DNA of 64,000 bases from an uncultured Brachyspira sp. (GTDB lineage Bacteria > Spirochaetota > Brachyspiria > Brachyspirales > Brachyspiraceae), in assembly GCF_944388875.1 (NCBI RefSeq), contig NZ_CALXKQ010000005.1, positions 1 through 64,000 of the forward strand. Reading direction: 5' to 3'. Every line of letters begins with the position of its first letter. The stretch's first letter is position 1. The position numbers and the translations under genes were made by a program. This document shows positions 1,842 through 34,042 of this stretch, in pieces. Under the pieces are notes generated by a model. The model was not told where the DNA came from. It ran no database searches and saw only the letters and a program-made list of their open reading frames with translations.

Positions 1842-2633
1842 TTATCTATCTCCAACTTGTTCATTTATTTTCTGACGCTGAGCAGGAGGCAAGAAAGATA
1901 CTAATTTATCTTTTACTATTCTAGGGTTATCGCCTGCTTGTATAGAAAGTATACCTTCAAGCATGATGCTCTGAACTGTAGCTTCTGCAGCGTGTCTTGC
2001 AGCAAGTCTACCAGCTATAGGCAATGCAAAACCGTTAGCTATAACAGAACCGTAGTATGTAGTAATTAACGCTACCGCCATACCAGAACCGATGGCTTCA
2101 ACACCACCGCCGCCTCCCAAGCTTCTTAACATGATTACAAGTCCGATTAATGTACCAATCATACCCCATGCAGGATATAATGAAGCAGCATCTTCAAAAA
2201 CCTTTTTTACTGTATCGTGTCTTGCTTCTACGTTATCTATTTCTGTATTTAATATGTTTTTTACTAATTCAGGGTCTGTACCGTCTACAACAAGCTGCAT
2301 GCCCTTTTTCAAAAACGGATCTGATACTTCCTGTATATCATCTTCCAATACTAATAAACCCTCTCTTCTAGCTTTCTCTGAAAAACTTAGAAGCGTTATG
2401 ATAATTTGAGATTCATCATAATCAGGTTTTTTCAAAAGAACTTTTATAGCTTTAGGAACACCTAATATAGTTCCTAAGTCATTAGCAACTAAAAGCGAAG
2501 TTGTACCTCCCAAACCTGTAACAACTACAGATGCAAAGTCAACCATATGACCTACATTACCGCCTCCTGAAATGATACCGAATAAGTTAATAGCTATAAC
2601 TAATACAACACCTAATGGTACAAATATATCCAT
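1842..2633 (-). CDS. motA: Flagellar motor stator protein MotA
   Basis: A 263-residue inner-membrane protein of the MotA/ExbB-type channel family, at the usual length. Four membrane segments are apparent: two at the N-terminus (about 3-22 and 31-50) and two after a large cytoplasmic loop, beginning with YPAWGMIGTLIGLVIML. The loop contains a charged SEKARREGLLVLEDD segment, equivalent to the region that contacts the rotor protein FliG. With MotB it forms the torque-generating stator. It sits 36 bases downstream of flbD and 17 bases upstream of motB. An antisense open frame on the other strand is only a codon-bias shadow. Confidence 0.97.
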   Translation of the reverse strand: MDIFVPLGVVLVIAINLFGIISGGGNVGHMVDFASVVVTGLGGTTSLLVANDLGTILGVPKAIKVLLKKPDYDESQIIITLLSFSEKARREGLLVLEDDIQEVSDPFLKKGMQLVVDGTDPELVKNILNTEIDNVEARHDTVKKVFEDAASLYPAWGMIGTLIGLVIMLRSLGGGGGVEAIGSGMAVALITTYYGSVIANGFALPIAGRLAARHAAEATVQSIMLEGILSIQAGDNPRIVKDKLVSFLPPAQRQKINEQVGDR

Positions 2634-2669
2634 ATTTTGACCTCTAACTAAAATTTATTTTTTATTTTA

Positions 2670-2894
2670 CTAATCTTCATTACCATAGAATGAAGGTTTT
2701 TTTACACTATTTTCATTAACTATTCTAGTTCTATACTCTATTATCCTATTAAGCACAGTATCAAAACTATCTTTAGTTACTACCTTCCTTCCAGATAACA
2801 TTGTTATTACCAAATCAGGAGTCTCCTCCATGAATTCTATTTGATGCGGATTAACATATAATATACTTCCATCAAATCTTGTTATATGTATCAT
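2670..2894 (-). CDS. flbD: Flagellar protein FlbD
   Basis: A 74-residue protein matching the small FlbD/SwrD family found between flgE and motA in spirochaetes and Firmicutes. The family signature is clear: an N-terminal MIHITRFDG, then NPHQIEFMEETPD, then TMLSGRKVVTKDS. In Bacillus the homologue SwrD raises stator power output; the role in spirochaetes is less studied. It is soluble, with no signal or membrane segment. It is followed after 36 bases by motA and preceded by flgE, which supports operon membership. It should not be confused with the Caulobacter regulator also called FlbD. Confidence 0.93.
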   Translation of the reverse strand: MIHITRFDGSILYVNPHQIEFMEETPDLVITMLSGRKVVTKDSFDTVLNRIIEYRTRIVNENSVKKPSFYGNED

Positions 2895-2955
2895 AATATC
2901 AGAAACTCCTAACTCTATTATACTATAAAATTATAAATAAGTCTAATACCTAAAA

Positions 2956-4281
2956 TTATCTCTTAAGTGCTATAACTTCCTGAAGCATTTGATCTGCTGT
3001 AGTTATAGTTCTGGCATTAGATTGGAAACCTCTTTGAGTTACTATCATATCTGTAAATTGCTCACTCAAGTCAACGTTAGACATCTCTAAAGCACCTGCT
3101 TTGATTGATCCTCTGCCTTCTGCTGCAGCTGGTCCTATGTTAGCAGCACCTGAGTTATTGCTTGCTACAAATAAAGTATCTCCTGCTTTTTCTAAACCGC
3201 CTGCATTATTGAATTTAGCTAAAGCAACCTGTCCTAAAGTTTTTCTGTTTCCATTAGTAAATACGCCTGTTATTACTCCGCTGTCATCAAAACTAAAGCC
3301 TTCAAGCATACCCATAGTATAACCGTCTTGTTCTATAGCTTTAGTAGTTGAAGGTGATTCAAACTGAGTAATACCATTGAATAAACCAACCTCTCCCATT
3401 GTTAAATTAATAGTTTGATTTACTTCGCCTTCAGTTCCCTGATAAGTGAAAGATACATTAGGCATTAACATACCTTCTGTTTGTGTATTAGTACCATCGC
3501 TTACTGATATTAATGAACCAGCATCATTGAATACTAATTGGAAAGTATTGTTTCCGCCGCCTTCTACTGGATCTCCTGCTGATACGCTTACGCTTCCTTC
3601 TGTAGCATCAGGTATATCTATTGTCATATCCCATCTGTTAACATCTGTTCTAGTGAAAGTTGCTCTTAATTGACGAGGTATTCCTGTAGAATCATATATA
3701 GTTAAATCTGACTGATGTGTTTCTCCTGTTTTTTGCAAGTTACAGAAATAATGTGTATTTGCTGTAGCTCTTGCTGGGTCTTTTGAACCTACTGGTATAA
3801 TCAAGTCTTCTACACCAGCTGCAGTATTTAATTCCATTTCACCTGTTTCTGGATTAAGTACAGCATTCCAGCCTTGTACCTTATAACCTATAGAAGGGTT
3901 AACTAAGTAACCATCTCTATCTAAAGAAAAAGCACCGTTTCTTGTATAATAAGAGTTGTTGCCTCTTTTTTCAATAAAGAATCCTTCTCCTTGTATAGCC
4001 AAATCAGTGTTTACACCAGTAACTTGTAAAGCACCTTGAGTATGTATAGTGTCTATAGTTGCAACCATCATACCTAATCCTACTTGCTGAGGATTGATAC
4101 CGCCTCTATCCTCTTGGGGTTTAGCTGCCCCGCTTAAAGATTGGCTTATCATATCCTTAAAAGTAACTCTGCCTCTTTTAAATCCATAAGTATTAACGTT
4201 AGCAATGTTATTTCCAACTACATCCATTCGAGTTTGATGATTTTGTAAACCAGACACGCCGGCAAATAATGAACGCATCAT
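2956..4281 (-). CDS. flgE: Flagellar hook protein FlgE
   Basis: A 441-residue hook subunit. The N-terminal rod/hook signature (SLFAGVSGLQNHQTRMDVVG, then NNIANVNTYGFKRGR) and the C-terminal SNVDLSEQFTDMIVTQRGFQ helix are intact. Lys167 and Cys180 (in SKDPARATANTHYFCN) are 13 residues apart. This matches the pair (Lys165/Cys178 in Treponema denticola) that forms the self-catalysed lysinoalanine cross-link between spirochaete hook subunits. A strong GGAGG lies 10 bases before the first of two adjacent ATG codons, so the first is kept. It is the first gene of the flgE-flbD-motA-motB group, with a sigma-28-like site about 45 bases upstream. Confidence 0.97.
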   Translation of the reverse strand: MMRSLFAGVSGLQNHQTRMDVVGNNIANVNTYGFKRGRVTFKDMISQSLSGAAKPQEDRGGINPQQVGLGMMVATIDTIHTQGALQVTGVNTDLAIQGEGFFIEKRGNNSYYTRNGAFSLDRDGYLVNPSIGYKVQGWNAVLNPETGEMELNTAAGVEDLIIPVGSKDPARATANTHYFCNLQKTGETHQSDLTIYDSTGIPRQLRATFTRTDVNRWDMTIDIPDATEGSVSVSAGDPVEGGGNNTFQLVFNDAGSLISVSDGTNTQTEGMLMPNVSFTYQGTEGEVNQTINLTMGEVGLFNGITQFESPSTTKAIEQDGYTMGMLEGFSFDDSGVITGVFTNGNRKTLGQVALAKFNNAGGLEKAGDTLFVASNNSGAANIGPAAAEGRGSIKAGALEMSNVDLSEQFTDMIVTQRGFQSNARTITTADQMLQEVIALKR

Positions 4282-17766: not shown

Positions 17767-18018
17767 CTATTTATTCAAATATTTTTGAAGATTTTTTTCA
17801 TCTATATTAATAGAAATGAGTTTTTTGCTGTTTTTCTCTCCCTTTAATATTTCAACATCTCTTTTTTTTATATTAAGCTCATCAGCCAAAAAATCTATTA
17901 TAGCCTTATTAGCCTTGCCGTCTATAGCCTTAGCCATAATACGAATGGAATAGGCACCATTCTCGAATTTAAAACTATTGGATTTAGCTCCCGCTGTTAC
18001 TTTAATTTCTATATTCAT
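17767..18018 (-). CDS. YggU/DUF167 (UPF0235) family protein
   Basis: An 83-residue protein of the conserved YggU family, usual length. VTAGAKSNSF near the N-terminus, then RIMAKAIDGKANKAIIDFLA and EILKGEKNSKKL, are the family's signature segments. Its biochemical role is not established. Its ATG overlaps the TGA of the upstream DUF262-DUF1524 gene (ATGA), so it is translationally coupled to a putative restriction-type protein. That arrangement is unexpected for a housekeeping family and may reflect insertion of the cassette upstream of an older gene. Confidence 0.9.
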   Translation of the reverse strand: MNIEIKVTAGAKSNSFKFENGAYSIRIMAKAIDGKANKAIIDFLADELNIKKRDVEILKGEKNSKKLISINIDEKNLQKYLNK

Positions 18019-20051
18019 AATTTTGTATAATAGTCTACATATAAATTAATAACTTCTTCTAAATGTTTTTCACAAGTTTCTTCATTCCATTCTTTATTTG
18101 TAAATATCAACAATGATTTTAATGATTCTATATTTCCTTTATCGAGGATATTAGTTATAAATTTAGCTAACTTCTCATGATATGGTTTATTACTATATTC
18201 TGAATTAAGTCCTTGACTAATAAGAACCAAATTCCCAAAATTATCCAAATATATATCTTCCCATTTTGGTGAGTTTTCAGGATTTTGAGGATATACATGT
18301 TCTATAGAATTTTTAGCTGTAATTCTGAAATTTGGGAGTATATCATTTAATTTATTATTCTTATATTCAAAAAAATCATTATTCTTATTCCAATAATACC
18401 ATAAAATAAATTCTAATTTGTAAAACCAATATCTATAAAATTTTAATCCTTTTGGCATTTTGAGCTCTTCTATTAATAGAGCTTTTATTGTATCAATATT
18501 CTTATTATAGTAGGCATTAATTTTTTCAGAACACATATTTCTAGTTCTTTCACTTAAATTTTTATCACTCTCATAAAAATATAATAAATTATCTAATTTC
18601 ATTAAATATCTATATAAAATATCTTCATTTGTATCGTTATTTAGCATTTTATTTAAAAAAGGTGTTAACCAATACTGTGTTATATATTCCTGTGAATGAT
18701 ACAGCATAGTTTGAAGCATAGTAAATCCATCTGCATTTATATTATGTCTTCTTTGTATTACTTTGGAATTATCATTTTTTACACAATATATTTTACTAAT
18801 ATTTAACACCTCTTTATCATTTATATATACCCATTTAACTACATATTTATCAAATCTTACTCTAACTTTCCATAAAAGCTTTAAAAAATTTTTGATATCT
18901 TTGCTTTTAGTTTTCTTCGTAAATACCTTTCTAAATATATTAATAAGTTCTTTTTCTTTTACATCAATTAACTCATCTGTTATTTTATATTTAAGAACAA
19001 AAATTCTTAAAGTATGTAATAAAAGCATTGGGAAACTTATTATACTTCTTATATTTGGTGCTTCATATTCATTTTCATCATCTTCATTTTTGTCAAAATA
19101 AAAATCATTATTCTTATCTAAAATTTCATATAAATTATAATTATTGGGATTATTATTTATATTACTGCTTTTTATTAAATCTTTCACATATTTTATATTA
19201 TCAGATATATCTTCCTCCCTTTCACTATTTGCCTTAATATTGGAAGTATTAATAATTTTTTGTTTACTATCGATAAACTCCTTCCAAGTAATATTTAGAG
19301 CATCTTTTAAATTCTTTTCAATATAATTATCCATTATAGAACAACAATCCCATATAATAGAATATACATATTTTTTATCTTTTTCAATTTTTTCTAATAA
19401 TTTGGCTTTCAATATTTCATGTTGCTTTAATTGTACACCTCTATTATTAAAAGTTTCAAATAATTTATTAACATCTGTATTTTCAGGCATTTGGGTTATT
19501 ATAAATATTAATTTTGTAGAAATAAAGTCTATAAAGTCATTTAAATTAATATTATTATTTGTATCTTCAAAAAAACCTTTTATTACGTTTATAGCTTGAA
19601 AAAATGGAGATAACAATTCCTTTTCTTCATTGCTGTTGTTTTGATCATCTATATTAACTTTTTTAAAAAAATCATCAGCAAATTTTCTAGCTCTAAATAA
19701 TAATCTAACATTATTTTCTCCATATAAAAAATTATTAATAAATAATAAATTTTTATCATTTATTCTATCTGTAAATATTTCTTTTATAGTTTTAAATAAT
19801 ATAAATATTGTTGTAAAACGCTGCTGTCCATCTATTAAATCATACCTTTTATCATCAGATTTTAATATTATTAAAGATCCTATATAATAATTTTCTTTTT
19901 TATCTTCAATTGCAGTTTTTATATCTTGCAAAAGTTTTAATATTTGCTCTTCTTTCCAAACATATAATCTTTGGTAAATAGGAATTGAAAAATATTGTTT
20001 TTCTTTGATAATTTTATCTAAAGAAAATTGCTCTGAGCTTAATTCATGCAT
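18015..20051 (-). CDS. DUF262-DUF1524 protein, GmrSD/SspE-like putative nuclease
   Basis: A 678-residue protein with both modules of the GmrSD/SspE type. The N-terminal DUF262 (ParB/sulfiredoxin-like NTPase) shows IPIYQRLYVW (23-32), DGQQRFTT (74-81) and FNNRGVQL. The C-terminal DUF1524 HNH-type nuclease shows IEHVYPQ (583-589, His585) followed by GNLVLISQGLN. In known systems DUF262 senses or hydrolyses nucleotide and the HNH domain cleaves modified DNA. GGAG lies 8 bases before the ATG. It follows a second DUF262 gene in one operon and is coupled to the YggU gene. The target is unknown; a defence role is inference from family. Confidence 0.85.
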   Translation of the reverse strand: MHELSSEQFSLDKIIKEKQYFSIPIYQRLYVWKEEQILKLLQDIKTAIEDKKENYYIGSLIILKSDDKRYDLIDGQQRFTTIFILFKTIKEIFTDRINDKNLLFINNFLYGENNVRLLFRARKFADDFFKKVNIDDQNNSNEEKELLSPFFQAINVIKGFFEDTNNNINLNDFIDFISTKLIFIITQMPENTDVNKLFETFNNRGVQLKQHEILKAKLLEKIEKDKKYVYSIIWDCCSIMDNYIEKNLKDALNITWKEFIDSKQKIINTSNIKANSEREEDISDNIKYVKDLIKSSNINNNPNNYNLYEILDKNNDFYFDKNEDDENEYEAPNIRSIISFPMLLLHTLRIFVLKYKITDELIDVKEKELINIFRKVFTKKTKSKDIKNFLKLLWKVRVRFDKYVVKWVYINDKEVLNISKIYCVKNDNSKVIQRRHNINADGFTMLQTMLYHSQEYITQYWLTPFLNKMLNNDTNEDILYRYLMKLDNLLYFYESDKNLSERTRNMCSEKINAYYNKNIDTIKALLIEELKMPKGLKFYRYWFYKLEFILWYYWNKNNDFFEYKNNKLNDILPNFRITAKNSIEHVYPQNPENSPKWEDIYLDNFGNLVLISQGLNSEYSNKPYHEKLAKFITNILDKGNIESLKSLLIFTNKEWNEETCEKHLEEVINLYVDYYTKL

Positions 20052-20075: not shown

Positions 20076-20279
20076 TTATTTGATACTACTAATGATTGTA
20101 CTAATAATGTTTTCTTTATCTAAATCATTTTCTAAATTTATACCTATATCATTTATAAAATTAATATAACTTTTTCTATACTGCCCTATTACACCTTTAT
20201 CAGTTACTTCTAAGTAATTAGTAATTTTTGGAATATTCTCTTTAATAAAAGATATAATATCTTTTGTGTCAAATGCCAT
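20076..20279 (-). CDS. Small ORF, probably the detached C-terminus of the DUF262 gene
   Basis: A 67-codon open frame with no Shine-Dalgarno sequence before its ATG. Its reading frame stays open upstream across the whole gap and back into the end of the preceding DUF262 gene, as far as the A7 tract at 20347-20353. One extra A in that tract would join the two into a single 482-residue protein ending in this segment. The peptide is charged and helical (KDIISFIKENIPKITNYLEV). I regard it as the missing C-terminus and not an independent gene, though a separate small protein cannot be excluded. Confidence 0.5.
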   Translation of the reverse strand: MAFDTKDIISFIKENIPKITNYLEVTDKGVIGQYRKSYINFINDIGINLENDLDKENIISTIISSIK

Positions 20280-20323: not shown

Positions 20324-21523
20324 TTATAATACTTTCTTTATATATCTTTTTTTAATTATACGATGATTTCCTATTAGATAATCACAATATAAAGCAAATT
20401 TTAAAAAATCATTTTCCTTAAATTTATCATAATACACAACACAAAGCATCTCAAAAAAATATTTAAAATAATTACTTATGTTATTTTTATAAACATGATT
20501 ATATAAATTATAAAAGTATTGAAATTGTTTATCATTACTTTCATTAGAATTAAATAGATAATCATGTATAGCATTATATTTATCTGTATATAAGAAAAAG
20601 TTAATACCTTTTACTATAGGCTGTCTTAACATAAAATAATACTCTTTTTCATTATCATTTTTACTAAAATCAGTTATACTATTTTCTACACATAATTTAT
20701 TTTGATTTTTATAAAAATCACACAAATTATTAATTTGATAACAATATCTAATTTTATCATCTCCATAATTTTTATGTGTGTTTTTCTGAAATTCTTTTAA
20801 TATTTCATCTTTACTTTCAAAATAAAGATTATTTCCTTTCCATTTTCTTGCTCTCCATAATATATTATAAAATAATATGTTAAGATTATTATTTTCCCTA
20901 TCATTTTTTATTCTATTGTTTTTATCCCATTTTTGTGCTATGTCATTTAACAAATCTGTATTTTTTATTGCTCTTAAATGATATGCTTTTAAATAATCAA
21001 CAGCTGATAAATTTACCCCCCTGCCATTTTGAGTATCAAAAAAAGTAAAAGCATCATCTTCTGATTTTGTATATATTACTGTAAACACTATTCTATTTAA
21101 AAATTCTTTTGGAAGTATATTTTCAATTTTTTCTGAACATAGATAATTAAAATTATTCTTAATATTTTTTAAAGTAATATTAGCATTAAATTTGGCTGTA
21201 ATTTTAAATTTCTTCTTTTTTAAAATATAAGCAATTATTAATAAACTTATTATTCTTTGCTGCCCATCTATTATATTATATATTCTTTTATTGGTATTTT
21301 TTTTAATTTCTAAATGAAGTAAAATTGTACCTAAATAATATTTATTAAAATCTCCTTTATTATTTTCAAAAAAGTATTTAAAATCATCTATCAGTTCTTT
21401 TATTTTTTCTTTATCCCATACATAAAATCTTTGGTATTCAGGAATAACTAATCTTTTTCTCAATAATTTTTTTAAAGTTACAACATTTACATCAATATCT
21501 TTTTTTATTTTTTCATCATTCAT
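20324..21523 (-). CDS. DUF262 protein without nuclease domain, likely frameshifted
   Basis: A 399-residue DUF262 protein. VIPEYQRFYVW (26-36), DGQQR (86-90) and FDTQNGRGVNL are the family motifs; no DUF1524 nuclease domain follows. It is first in an operon with the DUF262-DUF1524 gene and has a strong promoter at 21554-21582. The last residues follow an A7 tract (20347-20353); one added A would extend the protein through the next small open frame to 482 residues. The pair could be a two-subunit system like GmrS/GmrD with one nuclease-free partner. The frameshift may be real, phase-variable or a sequencing error. Confidence 0.8.
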   Translation of the reverse strand: MNDEKIKKDIDVNVVTLKKLLRKRLVIPEYQRFYVWDKEKIKELIDDFKYFFENNKGDFNKYYLGTILLHLEIKKNTNKRIYNIIDGQQRIISLLIIAYILKKKKFKITAKFNANITLKNIKNNFNYLCSEKIENILPKEFLNRIVFTVIYTKSEDDAFTFFDTQNGRGVNLSAVDYLKAYHLRAIKNTDLLNDIAQKWDKNNRIKNDRENNNLNILFYNILWRARKWKGNNLYFESKDEILKEFQKNTHKNYGDDKIRYCYQINNLCDFYKNQNKLCVENSITDFSKNDNEKEYYFMLRQPIVKGINFFLYTDKYNAIHDYLFNSNESNDKQFQYFYNLYNHVYKNNISNYFKYFFEMLCVVYYDKFKENDFLKFALYCDYLIGNHRIIKKRYIKKVL

Positions 21524-22431: not shown

Positions 22432-24195
22432 ATGAAAAATATTAATAAATATCTGCAAGAAATAGATGAATTTATAAATGATAAAAATTATGATGATGCA
22501 TTTACCTTATGCAATAATGTTTTAGATAATATCGATTCTAATAATATAGAAGCTATATTTAAAGCAGGATACTGCTGTTATAAATTGCAGAAATATGATA
22601 CAGCAATGATGAACTTTACAAAAGTTCTATATTTAGAAAAAAATTCTAGAAACAAAGCTATATACAAATACTATATAGGAAGATGCTATGATATATTTCA
22701 CTCACATAAAGAAGCATTAGAATGTTTTATAGAGGCATATAATTTGGATTCCTCCAACAAATATTATACATTATGGCTAGGCATCACTTATGCTAAAAAT
22801 GCTGATTATAATAATGCTTTAATATATTTGTCAATGTCATTAGGTTCAGAAGATTATCTAGTATACGGATATTTGGGATACTGCCATATAAAATTGAAGA
22901 ATTATGATGCAGCTGTTATGCATTTAGAAAAATCTGTTTCATTAAAAGATGATGATTATCTTATAAGATATTATCTAGGTTCAGCTTATTTTCTTCTTCA
23001 AATATATGACAAAGCATTAAAACATTTAAATGAATCTATAAGATTGAAGGATGATGAATTTGATACTTGGTTTACTATAGGAGAACTTTATCAGGTTATA
23101 GAAGATGACACTCTATCAAAAGAATGCTTTGAAAAAGCAAGAAATATTGCTCTAGAATATGAAGATATAGAAAAAGCAGCTGAATGTTTTACAAGACTTA
23201 TGGAAGTACAAGAAAATGAGTACTTAAATCATTTATATCTTGGTATTTGCTATGCAAGATTAGAAAGCTATAAGGATGCTGTACATCATCTTTTGGAATC
23301 AATAGATATAAATGAGAAAAATGATAATGAAAACAATTATTTAGCATTTTACTGGATTGGATATATTAATTATATAGACAGCGAATATGAAGAGGCTATA
23401 AAATACTTAGAAAAATCAATAAAATTGAATGATGACAAAGATAATTATTTAAATAGGCTATGGCTAGGAAATTCCTATTTTAAATTAGGAAATCATAAAA
23501 AAGCATTATTTAATTTAAATAGATCCATAGACCTAAAATATGATGAAGCAGAAACTCATAAATCAATAGCAAAAATATATATGTCCATTGGTCAAAAAGA
23601 TAAATACAACGAATATATAAATATATATAAGAAATTATTAAAGCAGGAAAAGCAAGATAGAAAAAATTACGATGATTTTAAAAAAATTGATTCCGAATCT
23701 GAAAGCAGTATTATATTTAATAATGAAAATGTAAGTCATAATAACCCTTCTTCAGAATTTATTAACAGCATAATGTCATTCAATGAAACAAAAAAAATAG
23801 ATATAATATACTTTATAAATTTTTTATTTCAAAGAATAGAAGATTCTGATTTATACAATTTGTATTCTTCAAACACAGAAAAAAAAGATTATATAAATTT
23901 TGATGATTTCAATATAGATAATTTTCTATCTTATAAAAATATTATAGAAAATACTCTAAATGAAAATTTCACAAATGATAATAAAATAAGTATTATAAAA
24001 AATATCACTCCGAACTTTTATGATGATTATAAAATAAAATCTAATGAAAAGCATATAAAAGAAACTATAAAAAACATAGAAGAATTATTCCAATATATAT
24101 CAGAGTGTATATTAAATTCTATGCAGAATTATTATAATAAATATGATATAGAACTTTATTATATACTTATGAATTTAATAACAACTCATCTATAA
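22432..24195 (+). CDS. Tetratricopeptide repeat protein, 587 residues
   Basis: About eleven TPR units fill residues 1-400, with phrases such as YDAAVMHLEKSVSLKDDDYL and YEEAIKYLEKSIKLNDDKDN. From about 400 the protein leaves the repeat pattern for a polar, Asn/Asp/Lys-rich region of about 185 residues without a recognised domain. No signal peptide is present. The 3' end overlaps the convergent cdaR-like gene by 10 bases. The function is unknown; the conserved repeat architecture suggests a scaffold. Confidence 0.83.
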   Translation: MKNINKYLQEIDEFINDKNYDDAFTLCNNVLDNIDSNNIEAIFKAGYCCYKLQKYDTAMMNFTKVLYLEKNSRNKAIYKYYIGRCYDIFHSHKEALECFIEAYNLDSSNKYYTLWLGITYAKNADYNNALIYLSMSLGSEDYLVYGYLGYCHIKLKNYDAAVMHLEKSVSLKDDDYLIRYYLGSAYFLLQIYDKALKHLNESIRLKDDEFDTWFTIGELYQVIEDDTLSKECFEKARNIALEYEDIEKAAECFTRLMEVQENEYLNHLYLGICYARLESYKDAVHHLLESIDINEKNDNENNYLAFYWIGYINYIDSEYEEAIKYLEKSIKLNDDKDNYLNRLWLGNSYFKLGNHKKALFNLNRSIDLKYDEAETHKSIAKIYMSIGQKDKYNEYINIYKKLLKQEKQDRKNYDDFKKIDSESESSIIFNNENVSHNNPSSEFINSIMSFNETKKIDIIYFINFLFQRIEDSDLYNLYSSNTEKKDYINFDDFNIDNFLSYKNIIENTLNENFTNDNKISIIKNITPNFYDDYKIKSNEKHIKETIKNIEELFQYISECILNSMQNYYNKYDIELYYILMNLITTHL

Positions 24196-25298
24196 TTATT
24201 ATTTTTCAAGATAGTAGCTATTATATAAAATTTAATTCTATCTAAATGATTATTAATAGGATCCATATTCAATACATCCTTAATCTTTTTCATCCTATAA
24301 AGAATAGTATTCCTATGAACGGCTAGTTTTTCACAAGTTTTATTTATATTCATATCAAATTTACTCATAGTTATTATAGTTTCTTTTAATGTCATATTTT
24401 TATTTATAATATTTAATATATTTCTTAATATCATACTAGAACTAAAATATCCCTCATTTAAAATAATATACTCCAAAACATAATCCTCTATAAAATAAAT
24501 CTTATTATTTGTTTGTTCTATATAGTTAAATAGAAAATTAGCCTGTTCAAAACTATCATGTATCCCTTCCAAGTCATTTACTATACATCCGCACATAACA
24601 GAAAATTTAATATCTATTTTTACAGCTTCTTTAAGACTCTTAAAAAATGAAATAATTATCTTTTTTTTATCATGTATTTTCTCTTTATCATTGAAACTTT
24701 TTATTATAATAAATTGTCTATTTCCAATATATGTTATAATATCTTGTTTATAAAAATATTTTATAACTTGAAGTTTATTTATTATATATTCTGATATTTT
24801 GTACATATCATATTTATCATTTTTTTCAATTTTTATTAAACATACAGTTCTATCTATAGAAAATGAATAGTTATTATTTTCAGCCCAAATATTGATAGAA
24901 GATATATAATTATGACTTTCCTTTGAAATAATTTTATATATATAATTATTTAAAGTGGTTTGTTTTAATATCTGCTTATCTATATCTATTTCCCTTTCTA
25001 TCAATATTTCAGTAATCATTTTAACCATATTTGCTATTAATCTAATTTCTTTTGGATTTCCAGTAACACCTACAACACCAATAATTTCACCATTTATAAA
25101 CAATGGTATATTAACACCTGGCTTGCTGCTTTCTGTATCATTATCTATATAATCAAAATACTCCATACTTTTAGAATTCTTTATCACCTCTAATGCCCCC
25201 AAATGTATTTTGCCTATTCTCTTTTCATCTCCGCTTGCTATAATTTCCCCATATTCATTCATAATATTAATATTTACCTCATAATTAATATTATCCAT
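24186..25298 (-). CDS. cdaR: CdaR-like sugar-diacid regulator, N-terminus displaced by frameshift
   Basis: A 370-residue open frame of the CdaR family, activators of glucarate/galactarate genes. The diacid-recognition domain has MNEYGEIIASGDEKRIGKIH (about 13-32) and PLFINGEIIGVVGVTG; the C-terminus has the PucR-type helix-turn-helix (CEKLAVHRNTILYRMKKIKD). The first 14-15 family residues are missing but are encoded immediately upstream in another frame (25298-25342), with a proper Shine-Dalgarno sequence. An A7 tract at 25301-25307 separates them. One extra A gives 385 residues, the length of E. coli CdaR. It is divergent from the aldarate cluster it presumably controls. Confidence 0.85.
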   Translation of the reverse strand: MDNINYEVNINIMNEYGEIIASGDEKRIGKIHLGALEVIKNSKSMEYFDYIDNDTESSKPGVNIPLFINGEIIGVVGVTGNPKEIRLIANMVKMITEILIEREIDIDKQILKQTTLNNYIYKIISKESHNYISSINIWAENNNYSFSIDRTVCLIKIEKNDKYDMYKISEYIINKLQVIKYFYKQDIITYIGNRQFIIIKSFNDKEKIHDKKKIIISFFKSLKEAVKIDIKFSVMCGCIVNDLEGIHDSFEQANFLFNYIEQTNNKIYFIEDYVLEYIILNEGYFSSSMILRNILNIINKNMTLKETIITMSKFDMNINKTCEKLAVHRNTILYRMKKIKDVLNMDPINNHLDRIKFYIIATILKNNNYR

Positions 25299-25342
25299 TA
25301 TTTTTTTAATAATCTTTGTGCTATTTTTATATCAATAGACAT
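25298..25342 (-). pseudogene. Displaced N-terminal segment of the cdaR-like gene
   Basis: ATG at 25342 follows AAGGAA with 8-base spacing and encodes 14 residues (MSIDIKIAQRLLKK) before a TAA at 25300-25298. The TAA overlaps the ATG of the main frame as TAATG. The peptide aligns with the start of CdaR-family proteins (an acidic-hydrophobic helix ending in AQ-x-hydrophobic). An eighth A in the tract would remove the stop. As it stands, the main frame could be reached by reinitiation at TAATG or by slippage at A7. Confidence 0.65.
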
Positions 25343-25454
25343 AATAATTGTTCCTTATAATCGATTTTATATATAGACATTCCTTATAAAATATAACCAG
25401 TCATTATAATAAAAAAGAAAAATACATATTATTATTATGTAATTTTATCTTAAT

Positions 25455-25502
25455 TTGTATATATCATACAAAAAACACTTCAATTATTATATACAATGTA
25501 TA
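25455..25502. promoter_or_regulatory. Two short palindromes in the cdaR-aldarate divergent region
   Basis: TTGTAT-N5-ATACAA (25455-25471) and TATAC-AAT-GTATA (25490-25502) lie between the divergent cdaR-like gene and the hydroxyacid dehydrogenase gene. A separate direct repeat TTCCTTATAA occurs at 25351 and 25380. These are candidate sites for CdaR or another regulator. The assignment is positional only. Confidence 0.4.
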
Positions 25503-25568
25503 AAGATAATATGTCCGATTTGAATATAATTAAAATTATAAAATTAAGATTTTTTAATGGACATAAAA

Positions 25569-26564
25569 ATGAAAATAATAGCTTATTCCGTTCGTGAAGA
25601 AGAAATAGAAATATTTAATTCAATTTCTTCCAAATTAAATTTAGAAATAAAACTGGTAACAGATCATTTAAATGAAAATAGTATTAATGCTTCAAAAGGA
25701 TTTGATGCTGTAATATTTACAGGCTCAGGAAATGTAAATAGAAACGTAATAGAATGTATGCATGATTTTAATATAAAATTTGCTGCAACAAAATCTGCTG
25801 GTACTGACAATATAGATTTGAAATCGGCAAAAGAATTTGGTATAAGATTTGCTAATGTTCCAAGCTATTCTCCTAATTCTGTAAGTGAGTACGCTGTTTT
25901 ATGTGTTCTTTCTTTACTTAGAAATTATAACAAATACATATTGAGAGTTCAAAATCAGGATTTCACAATAAAAAATTTATTAGCAAAAGAAATAAGAAAT
26001 CAGGTTATAGGTGTTGTAGGTGCAGGAAAGATAGGCTCTCTTACTGTAAAAACTTTAAGCGGATTTTCTCCCAAAAAAATATTTATAAACGATGCATTTG
26101 AAAAAGATGAATTAAAATCAATAGCTCAATATGTATCATTAGATGAATTATACAATAATAGCGATGTGATAATTTATCATGTTCCATTATTAAAAGAAAC
26201 TAAATATTTAATTAACTCTGATTCTATATCAAAAATGAAAGACGGAGTATTTATAGTAAATCTTTCAAGAGGTGAAATATTAAATACTAAAGATGCTTTT
26301 AATGCCATAGAAAGCGGAAAAATAGCAGGTATGGCATTGGATGTTTATGAGAATGAAAATAAATATTTTAGATTCGATTACAGAGAAAAATACATAGAAG
26401 ATGATATTTTCTCAAAACTCTTAAGACATCCTAATATTATTGTAACACCGCATATTGGATTTTTTACAGATGAGGCTGTAAGAAATCAAATAGAAACTTC
26501 ATTAAATAATGTTTTAGCATTTTTAAAAACAGATAACTGCCAAAATGAAATAATTATTAAATAA
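25569..26564 (+). CDS. D-2-hydroxyacid dehydrogenase, D-lactate dehydrogenase-like
   Basis: A 331-residue NAD-dependent dehydrogenase of the D-2-hydroxyacid family. The dinucleotide motif GVVGAGKIGSLTVKTL, the catalytic-arginine segment NLSRGEILN and the catalytic-histidine segment TPHIGFFTDEA are all visible. The upstream ATG at 25557 has no Shine-Dalgarno sequence; the ATG at 25569 has a weak GGA 7 bases away and gives the usual family start (MKIIAYSVREEE). It is first in the aldarate cluster. A role in disposing of the pyruvate released by the pathway, or in reducing another hydroxyacid, is inference. Confidence 0.85.
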   Translation: MKIIAYSVREEEIEIFNSISSKLNLEIKLVTDHLNENSINASKGFDAVIFTGSGNVNRNVIECMHDFNIKFAATKSAGTDNIDLKSAKEFGIRFANVPSYSPNSVSEYAVLCVLSLLRNYNKYILRVQNQDFTIKNLLAKEIRNQVIGVVGAGKIGSLTVKTLSGFSPKKIFINDAFEKDELKSIAQYVSLDELYNNSDVIIYHVPLLKETKYLINSDSISKMKDGVFIVNLSRGEILNTKDAFNAIESGKIAGMALDVYENENKYFRFDYREKYIEDDIFSKLLRHPNIIVTPHIGFFTDEAVRNQIETSLNNVLAFLKTDNCQNEIIIK

Positions 26565-26591
26565 AAAAAATAAATAAAAAAGGAGTACAAA

Positions 26592-27476
26592 ATGAAAATA
26601 GGATTTATAGGACTAGGAATCATGGGAAAACCTATGAGCAAAAATTTAATAAAAGCAGGACATGAACTTGTTGTCTATAACAGATCAAAAGCATCTATGG
26701 ATGAGCTTGCTAAAGAAGGAGCAAAAACAGCTAATAATCCTTCTGAAGTTGCTAAGGAATGCGAAATCATAATAACTATGCTTCCAAACTCACCTCAAGT
26801 TAGAGAAGTTTGTTTAGCTGAAAATGGAATTATAGAAGGAGCTAAAAACGGAACTATAGTTATAGATATGAGTTCAATAGACCCAGTAGAATCAAAAGCT
26901 ATAGGGGCAGAACTTGCTAAAAAAGGCATAGAACTTTTAGATGCACCAGTATCTGGCGGAGAACCTAAAGCTATAGACGGAACTTTATCTGTTATGGTTG
27001 GCGGTAAAAAAGAAATATTTGATAAAGTTGAAAGTTTAATAAAACCTATGGCTGCATCTGTTGTTTATGTTGGTGATTTAGGTTCTGGTAATGTTGCTAA
27101 ATTAGCTAATCAGGTTGTAGTTGCCATCAATATTTCAGCTGTTTCAGAAGCATTAATATTAGCTAAAAAATTAGGTGCTGATCCTGAATTAGTTTATAAA
27201 GCTATAAGAGGCGGACTTGCTGGTTCTACAGTAATGGATGCTAAAGCTCCTATGATGCTTGAATATAATTTTAAACCTGGTTTTAGAATTGAACTTCATA
27301 TAAAAGATTTAAATAATGCTTTAAATGCTTCTCATGCTGTGAATTCTTATTCGCCTTTAACTGCTCAAGTTATGGAAATAATGCAGTATTTAAAATCTGA
27401 CGGCTGTGCTGCTGATGACCATAGTGCCATATTAAAATACTATGAAAAAATAACAAATGTTTCTTTAAAAAAATAA
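26592..27476 (+). CDS. garR: Tartronate semialdehyde reductase GarR
   Basis: A 294-residue member of the beta-hydroxyacid dehydrogenase family, usual length. It should reduce tartronate semialdehyde to D-glycerate with NAD(P)H. The Rossmann motif GFIGLGIMGKPM (4-15), the substrate-binding DAPVSGGEPKA (117-127) and the catalytic lysine 170 in GSGNVAKLANQ are intact. AGGAG precedes the ATG by 6 bases. It stands between the hydroxyacid dehydrogenase and gudD in a tightly spaced operon. GarR is favoured over 3-hydroxyisobutyrate dehydrogenase because of the aldarate context. Confidence 0.92.
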   Translation: MKIGFIGLGIMGKPMSKNLIKAGHELVVYNRSKASMDELAKEGAKTANNPSEVAKECEIIITMLPNSPQVREVCLAENGIIEGAKNGTIVIDMSSIDPVESKAIGAELAKKGIELLDAPVSGGEPKAIDGTLSVMVGGKKEIFDKVESLIKPMAASVVYVGDLGSGNVAKLANQVVVAINISAVSEALILAKKLGADPELVYKAIRGGLAGSTVMDAKAPMMLEYNFKPGFRIELHIKDLNNALNASHAVNSYSPLTAQVMEIMQYLKSDGCAADDHSAILKYYEKITNVSLKK

Positions 27477-27504
27477 ATAAAAAAGTTTAGGGGGATAAAA
27501 TATT

Positions 27505-28833
27505 ATGAGTATTGATATAAAAATTGAAAAAATGGATATATACCCTGTAGCTGGTAAAGACAGTATGCTTTTAAACCTAAGCGGTGCTCATGCTCCATAT
27601 TTTACAAGAAATGTAGTTATACTAAAAGACAGCGAAGGTAAAATAGGTGTTGGTGAAGTTCCAGGCGGAGAAAAAATCACTAAGGGACTTGAAAGCATAA
27701 AATCAATAGTTGAAGGAAGCCGTATAGGAGAATATAAAAATACTCTTATAAAAATACAAAATTCTTTAAAAGATGAAAATGATGTAAGAGGAGCACAGAC
27801 ATTTGATTTAAGAACAGGTGTTCATGTTATGACAGCCGTAGAAGCTCCTTTATTAGATTTATTAGGTCAGACATTAGGAGTTCCTGTTGCCTCTCTTTTG
27901 GGAAACGGACAATTAAGAGATAAAGTATTAATGTTAGGCTACTTATTTTATGTAGGCGACAGAAAGAAAACAGATTTAGAATATTATCATAATGAAAGTG
28001 CTGCTAACAAATGGTATAAAATCAGACATGAAGAAGCTCTTACACCTGAAGCTATAGTAGAATTAGCTAAAGCCTCAAAGGAATTATACGGCTTTAATGA
28101 TTTCAAATTAAAAGGCGGTGTTTTAGAAGGCAAAGAAGAGATAAAAGCTATAAAAGCATTAAAAAAAGCATATCCTGATGCAAGAATTACATTAGACCCT
28201 AACGGCGGATGGCTTTTAAAAGAAGCTATAGAAATATGTAAAGATATGCATGGAATATTAACATACTGTGAAGATCCCTGCGGAGCTGAAGGCGTATTTT
28301 CAGCAAGAGAAATAATGGCAGAGTTTAGAAAAGCAACAGGTCTTCCTACAGCTACTAATATGATAGCTACAGACTGGAGAGAGATGAGCCACTCTATTAT
28401 ACTTCAGTCAGTAGACATTCCTTTGGCAGATCCTCATTTCTGGACTATGTCTGGTTCTGTAAGAGTAGGTCAGCTTTGCCATGATTTCGGCTTGACTTGG
28501 GGATCGCATTCAAACAACCACTTTGATATTTCTCTAGCTATGTTCTCTCATACTGCAGCTGCTGTACCTGGAAATATTAATGCTATAGATACTCATTGGA
28601 TATGGCAGGAAGGTATAGAAAGACTTACAAAAGAACCTTTAAAAATAGAAAACGGATATGTGAATATACCTAAAAAACCTGGTTTAGGAATAGAACCAGA
28701 TATGGATCAAATATTAAAAGCAAATGAACTATATAAAGAAAAATGCTTAGGTGCTAGAGATGATTCTATAGGAATGCAGTATTTAATTCCTAATTGGAAA
28801 TTCAACCCTAAAAAACCTTGCTTAGTAAGATAA
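27505..28833 (+). CDS. gudD: D-glucarate dehydratase GudD
   Basis: A 442-residue enolase-superfamily enzyme of the mandelate-racemase subgroup, usual length. It dehydrates D-glucarate to 5-keto-4-deoxyglucarate. The catalytic Lys segment FKLKGGV, the metal-binding DPNGGWLL and the CEDPCG segment are visible. Downstream [11 protein letters not shown] and [15 protein letters not shown] supply the other catalytic residues. Its product is also the product of galactarate dehydratase (garD, same cluster). It is preceded by GGGGG 10 bases from the ATG. The relative GudX cannot be excluded, but complete motifs favour an active dehydratase. Confidence 0.93.
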
Positions 28834-28878
28834 AAACTAATTAATAAAAAACTAATAAATTATTAAAGAGGTATTAAT

Positions 28879-30291
28879 ATGGATGAAGCAACAAGAATGA
28901 TATTAGGTCTTATACTAGGTGTAGGCATAATGATATTTTTGGTAATGTGCACAAAAATACATACATTCATAGCTTTATTAATAGCAGCTATGATAACAGG
29001 TATAATAGGAGGCATGCCTATAACTGATATGACAAATGCCGACGGCAAAAAAATAACAGGATTAATAACAGCTATACAATCTGGTTTTGGAAGTACTTTA
29101 TCCAGCACAGGAATCATTATAGGTTTAGGTGTTATGATGGGAGGTATATTAGAAAAATCAGGAGGAGCTGAAAGGCTTGCATTTACATTTATAAAATTTA
29201 TCGGAAAGAAAAAAGAAGAATGGGCTTTAGGTATTACAGGATTAATAGTATCTATACCAGTATTTGCTGATTCAGCACTTTTAATTTTTACACCTTTATT
29301 AAAGGGTATGTCGCAGGTTACTGGAAAATCAGTTGTAGGTTTAGCACTTTCATTGGCTGCTGGACTTCAATTATCACATTCTTTAATACCGCCTACACCA
29401 GGACCTCTTACAGCAGCAGGACTCCTTAATGTAGATATGGGAGCTATGATACTTACAGGTATTATAGTATCTATTGTTCCTCTTATTGCTGCTATATTTT
29501 ATACAAAATGGCTTGGTACAAAAATATATCAAGTTCCAAATGAACAAGGCGGATTTGACAGAAAAGAATTCAAAGCAGAATATATACGTTCTATGTCAGA
29601 ACTTGAAAAACTAATGGGAACTAAACAATTACCTCCTTTTATTATGTCATTAGCTCCTATAGTAGTGCCTTTAATATTAATTTTTGCTAAAACTATCTTT
29701 GATGTAGCAAATATAGAAGCAGGTGTTTTAAATAGTATTATAGATTTTTTAGGAAGTCCTATAGTAGCTTTGATGATAGGAACTCTTATAGCTATTTATG
29801 GGCTTGCTTTTAAATACAGTAAAAAAGATGTATTAAAAGTTTTGGAAGATTCAGTAAAATCCACTGGTATGATAATGCTTATTACAGGAGCAGGCGGATG
29901 TTTAGGTAATGTAATAAAAGTAAGCGGATTAGGAGATGTATTGGGAGATGCTGTAGTTAATATGCCAATACCTGCTTTATTAATACCTTTTGTAATAGCA
30001 GCATTAATGAGAATAGCTTTAGGATCTGCAACCGTTGCAATTACAACTGCAGCTACTCTAACAGCACCTTTAATGTCTAGTTTAGGAGCTTCTCCTATAC
30101 TATTGGCTCAGGCTTGCTGTGCTGGTGCTATATCTTTCTCATATTTTAATGACAGCGGTTTCTGGGTATTTAATGGTATGTTTGGTATAAATGAATTAAA
30201 AGATCAAGTTATGTGTAAATTTGCTGTATCTATGATAATGTCAATATTAGCTTTGGCAGTATTATTCATAATGCAGATATTTGTTAAATAA
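28879..30291 (+). CDS. GntP-family aldarate/gluconate permease
   Basis: A 470-residue integral membrane protein with about twelve hydrophobic segments in the GntP/gluconate:H+ symporter family. The family-typical loop GLQLSHSLIPPTPGPLTAAG is intact, and IPVFADSALLIFTPLLKG and SGFWVFNGMFG are also characteristic. In this cluster it most probably imports glucarate, galactarate or both. Enterobacteria use a major-facilitator transporter (GudP/GarP) for this step, so a GntP protein is a different solution. AGAGG lies 7 bases before the ATG. Operon position between gudD and the lyase is consistent. Confidence 0.9.
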   Translation: MDEATRMILGLILGVGIMIFLVMCTKIHTFIALLIAAMITGIIGGMPITDMTNADGKKITGLITAIQSGFGSTLSSTGIIIGLGVMMGGILEKSGGAERLAFTFIKFIGKKKEEWALGITGLIVSIPVFADSALLIFTPLLKGMSQVTGKSVVGLALSLAAGLQLSHSLIPPTPGPLTAAGLLNVDMGAMILTGIIVSIVPLIAAIFYTKWLGTKIYQVPNEQGGFDRKEFKAEYIRSMSELEKLMGTKQLPPFIMSLAPIVVPLILIFAKTIFDVANIEAGVLNSIIDFLGSPIVALMIGTLIAIYGLAFKYSKKDVLKVLEDSVKSTGMIMLITGAGGCLGNVIKVSGLGDVLGDAVVNMPIPALLIPFVIAALMRIALGSATVAITTAATLTAPLMSSLGASPILLAQACCAGAISFSYFNDSGFWVFNGMFGINELKDQVMCKFAVSMIMSILALAVLFIMQIFVK

Positions 30292-30314
30292 AAAATTATT
30301 CGGAGGATATAATT

Positions 30315-31208
30315 ATGAGTTTTGAACCAAAAGGAATTATTCCGCCTATAGTAACTCCTATAGACGATAATGGAAATATTAATTATAAAGTTTTAGAAGA
30401 ATTATCTGATCACTTAATAAAAGAAGGTGTTCATGGTCTATTCCCTATGGGAACTACAGGAGAGTTTTATGCTGTTGATGAAGAAGAATATAGAAAAGTT
30501 TTGGAAACTGTAAAAAAAGCAGCGGCTGGAAGAGTACCTGTTTACGGCGGGGTTAATAGCATATCTACAAGGGGTGCTTTAAGATTATTAAAAATATGTG
30601 AAGATGTAGGTATGGATGCCATTTCTGTACTAACACCTATGTTTATATCTCAAACACAAGATGAATTATATCAGCATTATAAAACTATAGCTTCTCATTC
30701 TTCATTGCCTATAGTAATGTATAATAATAAACCTAAAACCAATATTACTATAGAGCCTAGTACAGTTGTTAAACTTGCTAAAATAGAAAATATAGTAGGT
30801 GTAAAAGATAGTACTGGGGATATGACTAATACAACAGAATATATACGTTTAACTAGAGATAATGAGAATTTCAGTGTTCTTTTAGGAAGAGATACTTTAA
30901 TATATGCTGGATTATGCTGCGGAGCTAAAGGTGCTATAGCTTCATGTGCTAATGTTGCTCCTAGACTAACTGCTGATATATATGATAAGTTTATGGCAGG
31001 AGATTTAAAAGGCTCTTTGGATGCTCAGTTTGCTCTTGCTCCTATCAGAATAATAAGCAATATGGGTACTTTCCCTGCTGTTATAAAAGAAGGTCTTGTA
31101 CAGCAAGGAATAAATGTTGGAAAATGTTTAGACCCTATACAAAGACTTAAAGATGATGAGATAGAAAAATTAAGAGCTGTATTAAGAGAAGCAGGATTAA
31201 TAAAATAA
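30315..31208 (+). CDS. DapA-family lyase, probable ketodeoxyglucarate aldolase
   Basis: A 297-residue class I (Schiff-base) aldolase of the DHDPS/N-acetylneuraminate lyase family. GLFPMGTTGEFYAVDEEEY gives the GTTGE carboxylate-binding motif; VMYNNKPKTNI holds the catalytic-type tyrosine, with the usual proline of YNxP displaced. The Schiff-base lysine lies in IVGVKDSTGDM. The cluster has GarR and glycerate kinase but no HpcH-type GarL, so this protein is the natural candidate to cleave ketodeoxyglucarate into pyruvate and tartronate semialdehyde. The alternative is 5-dehydro-4-deoxyglucarate dehydratase activity giving 2-oxoglutarate semialdehyde, which fits the neighbours less well. Confidence 0.8.
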   Translation: MSFEPKGIIPPIVTPIDDNGNINYKVLEELSDHLIKEGVHGLFPMGTTGEFYAVDEEEYRKVLETVKKAAAGRVPVYGGVNSISTRGALRLLKICEDVGMDAISVLTPMFISQTQDELYQHYKTIASHSSLPIVMYNNKPKTNITIEPSTVVKLAKIENIVGVKDSTGDMTNTTEYIRLTRDNENFSVLLGRDTLIYAGLCCGAKGAIASCANVAPRLTADIYDKFMAGDLKGSLDAQFALAPIRIISNMGTFPAVIKEGLVQQGINVGKCLDPIQRLKDDEIEKLRAVLREAGLIK

Positions 31209-31243
31209 TTATTATTAAATTGATTTATTAAAAGAGGGCGATA

Positions 31244-32758
31244 ATGAAAAAGTCTTTTATAAAAATTAATGAAAATGATAATGTAGTTGTAGCAATTAAG
31301 GATTTGAAAAAAGATTCTTATATAGATGACGGCTTTAAGATTAACGATGATATACCTCAGTCCCATAAAATAGCTTTGAGAGATATAAAAAAAGATGAGC
31401 CTATTATAAGATATGGTATTTGTATTGGCTATGCTTTAAAAGACATAAATAAAGGTGATTGGGTAAATGAACATATATTGAGGCTTCCTTCTGCACCTAA
31501 ATTAGATGATTTAGTATTTGCCAAAAATATTATTACTCAATTGCCTAAGCCTTCAAGAACTACATTTTATGGTTATGATAATGGTGATGACAGATTCGCA
31601 GGTACTAGGAATATACTTGCTATAAGTACTACAGTGCAGTGCGTTGCTGGAGTATTGAATGCTGCTTTGAAAGAGATTAAAGAGAAACTTCTTCCTAAGT
31701 ATAAAAATGTTGATGATGTTGTAGCTATTAATCATGCTTATGGATGCGGTGTAGCAATAAATGCCAAAAACTCAGATATTCCTATAAGATCTTTAAGAAA
31801 TTTAGTAAAAAATCCTAATTTTGGTTCTGAAGTTATGGTAATAGGATTAGGCTGTGAAAAGCTTACTGTAGATAAGTTATTAGATGAAAAATTGATAAAT
31901 GATGATAATGTTATTATACTTCAGGATAAAAAAGGTTTTCATAGTATGATGAACTCTATTATGGAAATGGCAGAAAAGAAACTTGATAGATTAAATCAAA
32001 GAAAGCGAACATCTTTGCCTTTATCTAAACTTTGCATAGGTATGCAATGCGGGGGAAGTGATGCTTTTTCTGGAATAAGTGCTAATCCTTCAGCAGGTTA
32101 TGCTTCGGATATGCTTGTATCTGGAGGTGCTACTGTTATGTTTTCAGAAGTTACAGAAGCAAGAGATGGTGTTCATATATTGGCGGAAAGATGTATAAAT
32201 GATGAGGTAGGAAAAAAATTAGCTTCAGAGATGAAATGGTATGATGAATATTTATCTGTTGGAGAAGCAGATAGAAGTGCAAACCCAACACCAGGAAATA
32301 AAAAGGGAGGGCTTGCAAATATTGTTGAAAAGGCTATAGGTTCTATTGCTAAATCTGGAACTGCTCCTATAATTGAAGTTCTTTCTCCTGGTGAAGTTCC
32401 TACCAAGCATGGTTTAATATACGCTGCTACTCCTTCAAGCGATATAGTATGCGGTCCTTCTCAGTTGGCTTCTGGAATTACATTACAGGTATTTATGACT
32501 GGAAGAGGTACTCCATACGGATTGGCTGAAGCTCCTGTTATAAAAGTATCTTCAAGAAATGATTTGAGAGATATGTGGAGCGACTTAATAGATTTTAGTG
32601 CTGGAGATATTGTTACTGGAGATGCTGATATAAAAGAAGTTGGAGAGAAGCTGTTTAATGAAATAATAGATGTGGCAAGCGGAACAAAGAAGACATTTGC
32701 TGAAAAATATCATCTTTCTAATGATATGTGTATATTTAATCCTGCACCTATAACTTAA
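31244..32758 (+). CDS. garD: Galactarate dehydratase GarD
   Basis: A 504-residue protein of the UxaA/GarD family, close to the length of E. coli GarD (523). It dehydrates galactarate (meso-galactarate) to 5-keto-4-deoxyglucarate. Long stretches follow GarD rather than altronate dehydratase: HAYGCGVAINA, VMVIGLGCEKL, GMQCGGSDAFSGISANPSAG, and SANPTPGNKKGGLANIVEKA. The N-terminal SAF-like domain (about 1-90) is included, so both halves of the enzyme are in one chain. GAGGG precedes the ATG. It is the last gene before a strong terminator. Confidence 0.93.
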   Translation: MKKSFIKINENDNVVVAIKDLKKDSYIDDGFKINDDIPQSHKIALRDIKKDEPIIRYGICIGYALKDINKGDWVNEHILRLPSAPKLDDLVFAKNIITQLPKPSRTTFYGYDNGDDRFAGTRNILAISTTVQCVAGVLNAALKEIKEKLLPKYKNVDDVVAINHAYGCGVAINAKNSDIPIRSLRNLVKNPNFGSEVMVIGLGCEKLTVDKLLDEKLINDDNVIILQDKKGFHSMMNSIMEMAEKKLDRLNQRKRTSLPLSKLCIGMQCGGSDAFSGISANPSAGYASDMLVSGGATVMFSEVTEARDGVHILAERCINDEVGKKLASEMKWYDEYLSVGEADRSANPTPGNKKGGLANIVEKAIGSIAKSGTAPIIEVLSPGEVPTKHGLIYAATPSSDIVCGPSQLASGITLQVFMTGRGTPYGLAEAPVIKVSSRNDLRDMWSDLIDFSAGDIVTGDADIKEVGEKLFNEIIDVASGTKKTFAEKYHLSNDMCIFNPAPIT

Positions 32759-32914: not shown

Positions 32915-34042
32915 ATGAAAAAGATAATAATAATACCAGATTCATTTAAAGGAAGTGCAAGCAGCATGGAAGTTTGCGATTGTATAGAAAGAGGTATATT
33001 AAAGGTGTTTAATGATGCCAATATAAAAAAAATACCTGTTGCAGACGGAGGTGAAGGCACAGTTGACTCAATACTTTATGCTGCAGGAGGAAATATAAGA
33101 AAAATAAAAGTAAAAAATCCTGAAGGAAAAATTGTAGAAGCTAAATATGGTATTATTAATAAAGATAAGGCTGTTATAGAAATGGCTGAAGCATCAGGTA
33201 TTACTTTGGTTGATGATAAAAACAGAGAACCTTTAAAATATTCTACTTATGGTACTGGTGAGCTTATAAAGGATGCTATTAATAATAATATAAAAGAAAT
33301 ATTAATAGGAATAGGCGGAAGTGCCACTAATGACTGCGGAATCGGAATGGCTAATGCTTTGGGCTATAGATTTTTAGATAAGGATAACAATGAACTTGAT
33401 GCTATTGCTGAAAATATGATAAAAGTTTCTGCTATAGATGACAGCAATGTAGATAAAAGAATATTTGATATAAAAATAAGTGCTGCATGCGATGTTAAAA
33501 ATCCTCTTTACGGAGAAAACGGAGCTACTGCAATATATGGCAAGCAAAAAGGAGTTACTGAAGCGAGTTTTGATATACTTGATAATGGTCTTAAAAATAT
33601 AGCTAGAGTTGTAAAAGAAAAATATGGTAAAGAAATAGATTATATAGAAGGGGCAGGTGCTGCAGGAGGACTTGGAGGCGGACTTTTAGCTTTCTGCAAT
33701 GCTGAGTTAAAAAGCGGTATAGATGCTGTACTTGATATTATAGATTTTGAGGATCAAATAAAAGATGCTTCTCTTATTATAACTGGAGAGGGTGCTATTG
33801 ACGGACAAACTAAAAAAGGAAAAGTTCCTGTAGGTGTTGCCAGAAGAGCCAATGGAATACCAGTAATTGCTATAGTAGGAGATATAAGGGACGGTGCTGA
33901 AGCTGTTTATAATATGGGTATTGCTTCAATTATGCCTGCTTTAAAAAGAGCTATGCCATTGGAAGAAGCTATAAAAAATTCTAAACTTTTAATAGAAGAT
34001 GCCGCAGAAAGAGCATGCCGATTTATATCTATAAATATATAA
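32915..34042 (+). CDS. garK: Glycerate 2-kinase GarK
   Basis: A 375-residue type II glycerate kinase of the GarK/GlxK family, usual length. It phosphorylates D-glycerate to 2-phosphoglycerate and feeds the aldarate pathway into glycolysis. IPDSFKGSASSMEVCDCIE at the N-terminus, the VADGGEGTVDS phosphate-binding segment, EILIGIGGSATNDCGIGMAN and GAGAAGGLGGGL are characteristic. It follows the terminator of the garD operon, so a separate promoter is likely though none is obvious. AGAGG precedes the ATG. Confidence 0.93.
   Translation: MKKIIIIPDSFKGSASSMEVCDCIERGILKVFNDANIKKIPVADGGEGTVDSILYAAGGNIRKIKVKNPEGKIVEAKYGIINKDKAVIEMAEASGITLVDDKNREPLKYSTYGTGELIKDAINNNIKEILIGIGGSATNDCGIGMANALGYRFLDKDNNELDAIAENMIKVSAIDDSNVDKRIFDIKISAACDVKNPLYGENGATAIYGKQKGVTEASFDILDNGLKNIARVVKEKYGKEIDYIEGAGAAGGLGGGLLAFCNAELKSGIDAVLDIIDFEDQIKDASLIITGEGAIDGQTKKGKVPVGVARRANGIPVIAIVGDIRDGAEAVYNMGIASIMPALKRAMPLEEAIKNSKLLIEDAAERACRFISINI

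Follow-up and report, generated by a model that had tools for sequence, protein, structure and literature searches.

A cdaR-family gene one base short of its relatives beside a Brachyspira glucarate/galactarate operon

Introduction

Has a regulator of oxidised-sugar use been damaged in this strain by the loss of a single base, is it switched or recoded at the site of the break, or is one base simply missing from the sequence? The question arises in the window (the whole 64-kb stretch of DNA that was analysed), where a cdaR gene on the minus strand, divergent to genes for glucarate and galactarate use, is split close to its 5′ end. The use of oxidised sugars has been linked to the inflamed gut (PMC11775122).

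Results

The 5′ end of cdaR is split at an A7 tract

Read on the minus strand from position 25342, the sequence is ATG TCT ATT GAT ATA AAA ATA GCA CAA AGA TTA TTA AAA AAA TAA. This frame of an ATG and 14 codons in all (25299–25342, minus strand; MSIDIKIAQRLLKK) has a Shine-Dalgarno-like AAGGA (25351–25355, minus strand) 8 nt upstream of its ATG, and it ends in a TAA lying directly 3′ of an A7 tract (25307–25301, minus strand). The TAA overlaps, as TAATG, the ATG at 25298 of a 370-amino-acid open reading frame (ORF) (24186–25298, minus strand), in front of which inspection of the sequence revealed no Shine-Dalgarno sequence or motif comparable to AAGGA. The tract is one A short of a continuous frame, as reading it as A8 (TTA AAA AAA ATA ATG) joins both parts into 385 amino acids, and it also forms an A AAA AAA heptamer in the register for −1 slippage. 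These observations agree with a preliminary description of the locus, which had placed a 14-residue family start with a Shine-Dalgarno sequence at 25342, followed by a TAA after A7 and the TAATG overlap, and had noted that one added A would give a continuous 385-residue protein.

Neither the length of the tract nor the overlap is distinctive. The window contains 107 A/T runs of 7–9 (81 of length 7, 24 of 8 and 2 of 9), so that an A7 is ordinary for this genome. Nearly all relatives carry ATA ATG (Ile-Met) at the TAATG site, and as any one-base loss just upstream of this conserved ATA ATG creates TAATG, the overlap gives no extra evidence.

The 370-residue frame belongs to the CdaR family

The 370-amino-acid ORF contains Diacid_rec (PF05651; 114 bits, E 4e-33, profile positions 18–132 of 134), GGDEF_2 (PF17853) and a C-terminal PucR-type helix-turn-helix, HTH_30 (PF13556; 42 bits), with a conserved recognition helix, HRNTILYRMKK. 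All three domains scored above the Pfam cut-offs, supporting the CdaR-family identity given earlier. The best NCBIfam model was CdaR itself (NF008550), scoring 130 bits where the equivalog cut-off stands at 612, and on these matches the protein is best described as a member of the CdaR family rather than a proven ortholog of E. coli CdaR. The glucarate/galactarate/glycerate genes garR, gudD, garD and glycerate kinase stand beside it, as they would for a regulator of the CdaR/SdaR type.

The first 15 residues of the protein, and with them the first 17 Diacid_rec profile positions, are gone with the frameshift. A full-length relative matched the profile over positions 1–132 (121 bits), and the same protein when truncated matched over 18–132 (111 bits), so the lost N-terminal residues are part of the sensing domain. 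Among homologs from outside Brachyspira, 58/73 aligned from query residue 1–3 (counted by hand from the match table). No solved structure covering the sensing domain was found.

The frame is continuous in all intact relatives

The gene was compared across 26 Brachyspira genomes, in which the window's genome is G000. Of the 26, 15 carry it, including one labelled B. pilosicoli PC5538III-hc as well as B. hampsonii 30446. In all 12 intact homologs whose 5′ end could be read, the frame ran uninterrupted across the break site, and the leader MSIDIKIAQRLLKK fits their conserved N-terminus, M.IDN.IAQ.LL.KIM. As the frames of the relatives are continuous here, the window is one base short. At the site the window has TTATTAAAAAAATAATGGAT, as against CTATTAAAAGAGATAATGGAT in the nearest relative (G014, 85% identical) and sequences similar to TTATTAGATAAAATAATGAAG in most of the others. 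The run of A is not itself conserved, being TTAAAAGAGATAATG in the nearest relative and TTAGATAAAATAATG in most, and none of the intact relatives aligned had the same short frame or an alternative tract length. Judged by its relatives, then, the frame break is real in this sequence, and a frame intact in relatives and broken in the window is the pattern of a frameshift pseudogene or hypomorph. The proposal that the frame is split at A7 with one base missing therefore holds against every intact relative; the two outcomes that had been foreseen among relatives, a shared A8 or a shared A7 with the same short frame, were both absent, the relatives being continuous without a conserved A run.

The rest of cdaR is under normal selection

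Over 370 codons, dN/dS between the window and G014 was 0.077; with outgroups as the reference, 10 derived residues fell on the branch of the window and 12 on that of G014. Neither dN/dS nor the branch counts for this pair gave any sign of relaxed selection or acceleration in the 370-amino-acid frame, and by these measures the rest of cdaR is under normal purifying selection. The lesion would therefore be recent or tolerated, or function would continue despite it, or the sequence would be wrong. Another genome, G018, has a cdaR copy with multiple lesions (L150 on contig C28, at about 2400–3600, minus strand), namely stops, frameshifts and a deletion. As this copy decayed independently while the neighboring glxK and gntP stayed intact, loss of the regulator is tolerated in Brachyspira.

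cdaR faces a rare aldarate operon

A divergent promoter region (25343–25556) separates cdaR from an operon on the plus strand. In order, this encodes a D-2-hydroxyacid dehydrogenase (25557–26564; 82% identical in G014), the tartronate semialdehyde reductase GarR (26592–27476; NF008592 and TIGR01505, both above cut-off), the glucarate dehydratase GudD (27505–28833; TIGR03247, 754 bits, below the 828.7 cut-off), a GntP-family transporter (28879–30291; TIGR00791 above cut-off), a DapA-like aldolase (30315–31208), the galactarate dehydratase GarD (31244–32758; TIGR03248 above cut-off) and the glycerate kinase GlxK/GarK (32915–34042; TIGR00045 above cut-off). The AT-rich stretch separating cdaR from the operon shows partial conservation in G014, and no operator could be defined in it from these two sequences. 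A GudL-type 5-keto-4-deoxyglucarate (5-KDG) aldolase was described in 2025, with Met110 and Lys194 as its signature (PMC11775122). The DapA-like protein has Met109 (TPMF) but Arg192 (LGRD) at the corresponding positions, the numbering offset being inferred, and from its sequence it is probably a GudL-type 5-KDG aldolase in a spirochaete.

Only two of the 26 genomes have gudD, G000 and G014, and only in this pair do aldarate genes (25557–32758, plus strand) lie between cdaR and glxK, from which we infer that they were gained by insertion between the two. The GudD proteins of the pair are 97% identical, compared with 82–85% for the neighboring cdaR and D-2-hydroxyacid dehydrogenase; strong constraint or recent transfer may lie behind this uneven identity. 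In most other genomes cdaR adjoins glycerate kinase without gudD, and in many cases the GntP transporter there is another one, sharing about 34% identity with that of the window. This arrangement suggests that the older role of cdaR in the genus was probably glycerate sensing, in agreement with the CdaR of E. coli and Salmonella, which answers to glycerate plus two diacids (PMC11077982). The name given to the gene earlier, regulator of the aldarate cluster, is probably apt here by position, but does not carry over to the genus, where the usual partner of the regulator is glycerate kinase and not the aldarate genes.

A second A7 break lies 5 kb away

The window had also been said to hold a second A7 break, and this was found at 20353–20347 (minus strand) in a GmrSD_N/DUF7834 restriction-like gene (20324–21523, with an ORF at 20076–20279, minus strand), the B. 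hampsonii (G006) homolog of which has A8 and a full frame. The gene is one of two adjacent GmrSD-type genes on the minus strand, of which the other (18015–20051) has both N and C domains intact. The copy in a further genome, G009, also appears to be split. Two one-base shortfalls in 64 kb exceed the number predicted from the rate sampled below. Such a pair could stem from relaxation of selection on a defence gene plus a single lesion in the regulator, or from a local weakness of sequencing.

Homopolymer frameshifts are otherwise absent from the orthologs scanned

Homopolymer frameshifts were sought at the DNA level by setting the window's genome (about 1.66 Mb of it) against G014 (0.92 Mb), with filters for isolation and flank identity against noise from alternative start codons. 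The scan took in 88,114 codons from 251 orthologous ORFs, among which lay 343 A/T runs of at least 7, including 74 of at least 8. That in cdaR was the only homopolymer frameshift, the few other isolated frameshift events falling outside runs of this length. With 0/342 other runs shifted (95% bound about 0.9% per run), the assembly, a draft of 48 contigs, is not systematically short at homopolymers.

Discussion

Our preferred reading, held with little more than even confidence, is that a recent strain-level deletion of one base has left a weak or dead regulator, hypomorphic or null, above an intact glucarate/galactarate operon. An A8 to A7 deletion in the sequenced strain would break the frame at codons 13–15 of an otherwise normal, selected CdaR/SdaR-type regulator, and ribosomes setting out from the native start would stop 14 codons later. 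Reinitiation at TAATG by some of them, plausible from the layout, may yield a 370-residue protein that would be missing the initial part of the ligand-sensing domain, and a few may slip into the −1 frame on A AAA AAA and complete the full-length protein. We infer that the deletion is present in cells and that its net effect would be low or absent regulator activity above the aldarate/glycerate operon. Two points weigh against this reading: a pair of A8 to A7 breaks within 5 kb would also be expected if sequencing were weak in this region, and normal selection on the 370-residue frame fits a recoded full-length protein or a misread intact gene equally well.

The last of these, an error of sequencing or assembly in a strain that truly has A8 and a normal 385-residue CdaR, is a possibility to be taken seriously, though on balance we doubt it. 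It would account for the lack of decay elsewhere in cdaR and for the second shortfall nearby, and it suits a draft in 48 contigs from a genus in which frequent long homopolymers make sequencing harder (PMC8845278); against it, the clean record of the other runs in the 251 orthologous genes puts the error per run below about 1%. The preliminary description had offered truncation and assembly error side by side, and both are fair readings, with the proviso that any error is not a systematic one. It had also suggested that slippage might turn the regulator on and off. Phase-variable loci usually look like this, with an A-run frameshift close to the 5′ end of a regulator, and two A7 breaks in one window would suit reversible A7/A8 slippage between clones. 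We nevertheless consider such a contingency locus improbable: cdaR has no unusually long or conserved simple repeat, the tract being absent from most relatives and of a length common in this window, and no intact relative shows an alternative tract length or the short frame. Among the titles and abstracts found, none stood out as dealing with phase-variable metabolic regulators in Brachyspira. A mutator background was dropped as an explanation, mutS and mutL being intact in the genome, which also counts against the switch, and A7 is below the length for slippage, E. coli RNA polymerase showing no detectable slippage on fewer than 8 A (PMC6260861).

The same threshold bears on rescue by recoding, in which −1 ribosomal frameshifting on A AAA AAA beside the UAA, or transcriptional slippage, would supply useful amounts of full-length regulator. 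The heptamer does stand in the exact register (TTA AAA AAA TAA), a −1 shift there would continue into IMDNINYEV, and rescue of a broken gene by poly-A transcriptional slippage is documented for an A11 tract in Citrobacter tssM (PMC4256274). In E. coli, however, A_AAA_AAA is far less prone to shifting than A_AAA_AAG (PMC5009743), and a stimulatory downstream RNA structure was discarded here (z −0.59; 45/200 shuffles folded as well), nor was a Shine-Dalgarno-like stimulator evident. Loss of one A in this register by itself creates the heptamer, and the shift site is not conserved, all aligned relatives being continuous without it. We judge useful rescue of this kind to be as improbable as the switch. 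TAATG overlaps offer good geometry for reinitiation, and all named domains of the 370-residue form stay above the Pfam cut-offs, so that it might be an active shortened regulator, with the leader turned into a small attenuating frame. This seems to us the faintest of the readings, as the leader still reads as the family N-terminus rather than a free leader, the ATG at 25298 has no Shine-Dalgarno sequence and the residues lost belong to the sensing domain. There is likewise only a slim chance of the broader idea that a reversible A7/A8 switch, or an A AAA AAA–UAA–AUG device combining recoding and reinitiation to give two forms of the regulator, makes aldarate use vary between cells of one Brachyspira population.

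If the recent deletion is real, a strain with a rare and apparently gained glucarate/galactarate operon (2/26 Brachyspira) has a damaged regulator, and it would be unsafe to generalize from its growth or induction phenotypes to the species. If the sequence is in error, cdaR should not be annotated as a pseudogene.

Comparison with known systems

The closest counterpart is E. coli CdaR (SdaR), the common activator of the galactarate, glucarate and glycerate operons. The window's protein shares its domain order of Diacid_rec, GGDEF-like and PucR-type helix-turn-helix, matches NF008550 (PRK11477, 385 positions) across positions 23–380, and like it is encoded next to gud/gar/glycerate-kinase genes. 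Unlike E. coli CdaR, it is without its first 15 residues through the frameshift, and the aldolase of its operon is DapA-like, not GarL. Like the frameshifted tssM1 of Citrobacter rodentium, rescued by transcriptional slippage at A11 (PMC4256274), cdaR is an otherwise maintained gene in which a poly-A run is followed by a premature stop; its own run, however, is an A7, below the length at which slippage of E. coli RNA polymerase on A is detectable. The −1 programmed frameshift of E. coli dnaX (A AAA AAG) has its slippery heptamer in the same register, but that of the window ends in A instead of G, which makes it weaker, has no stem-loop and is not conserved in relatives.
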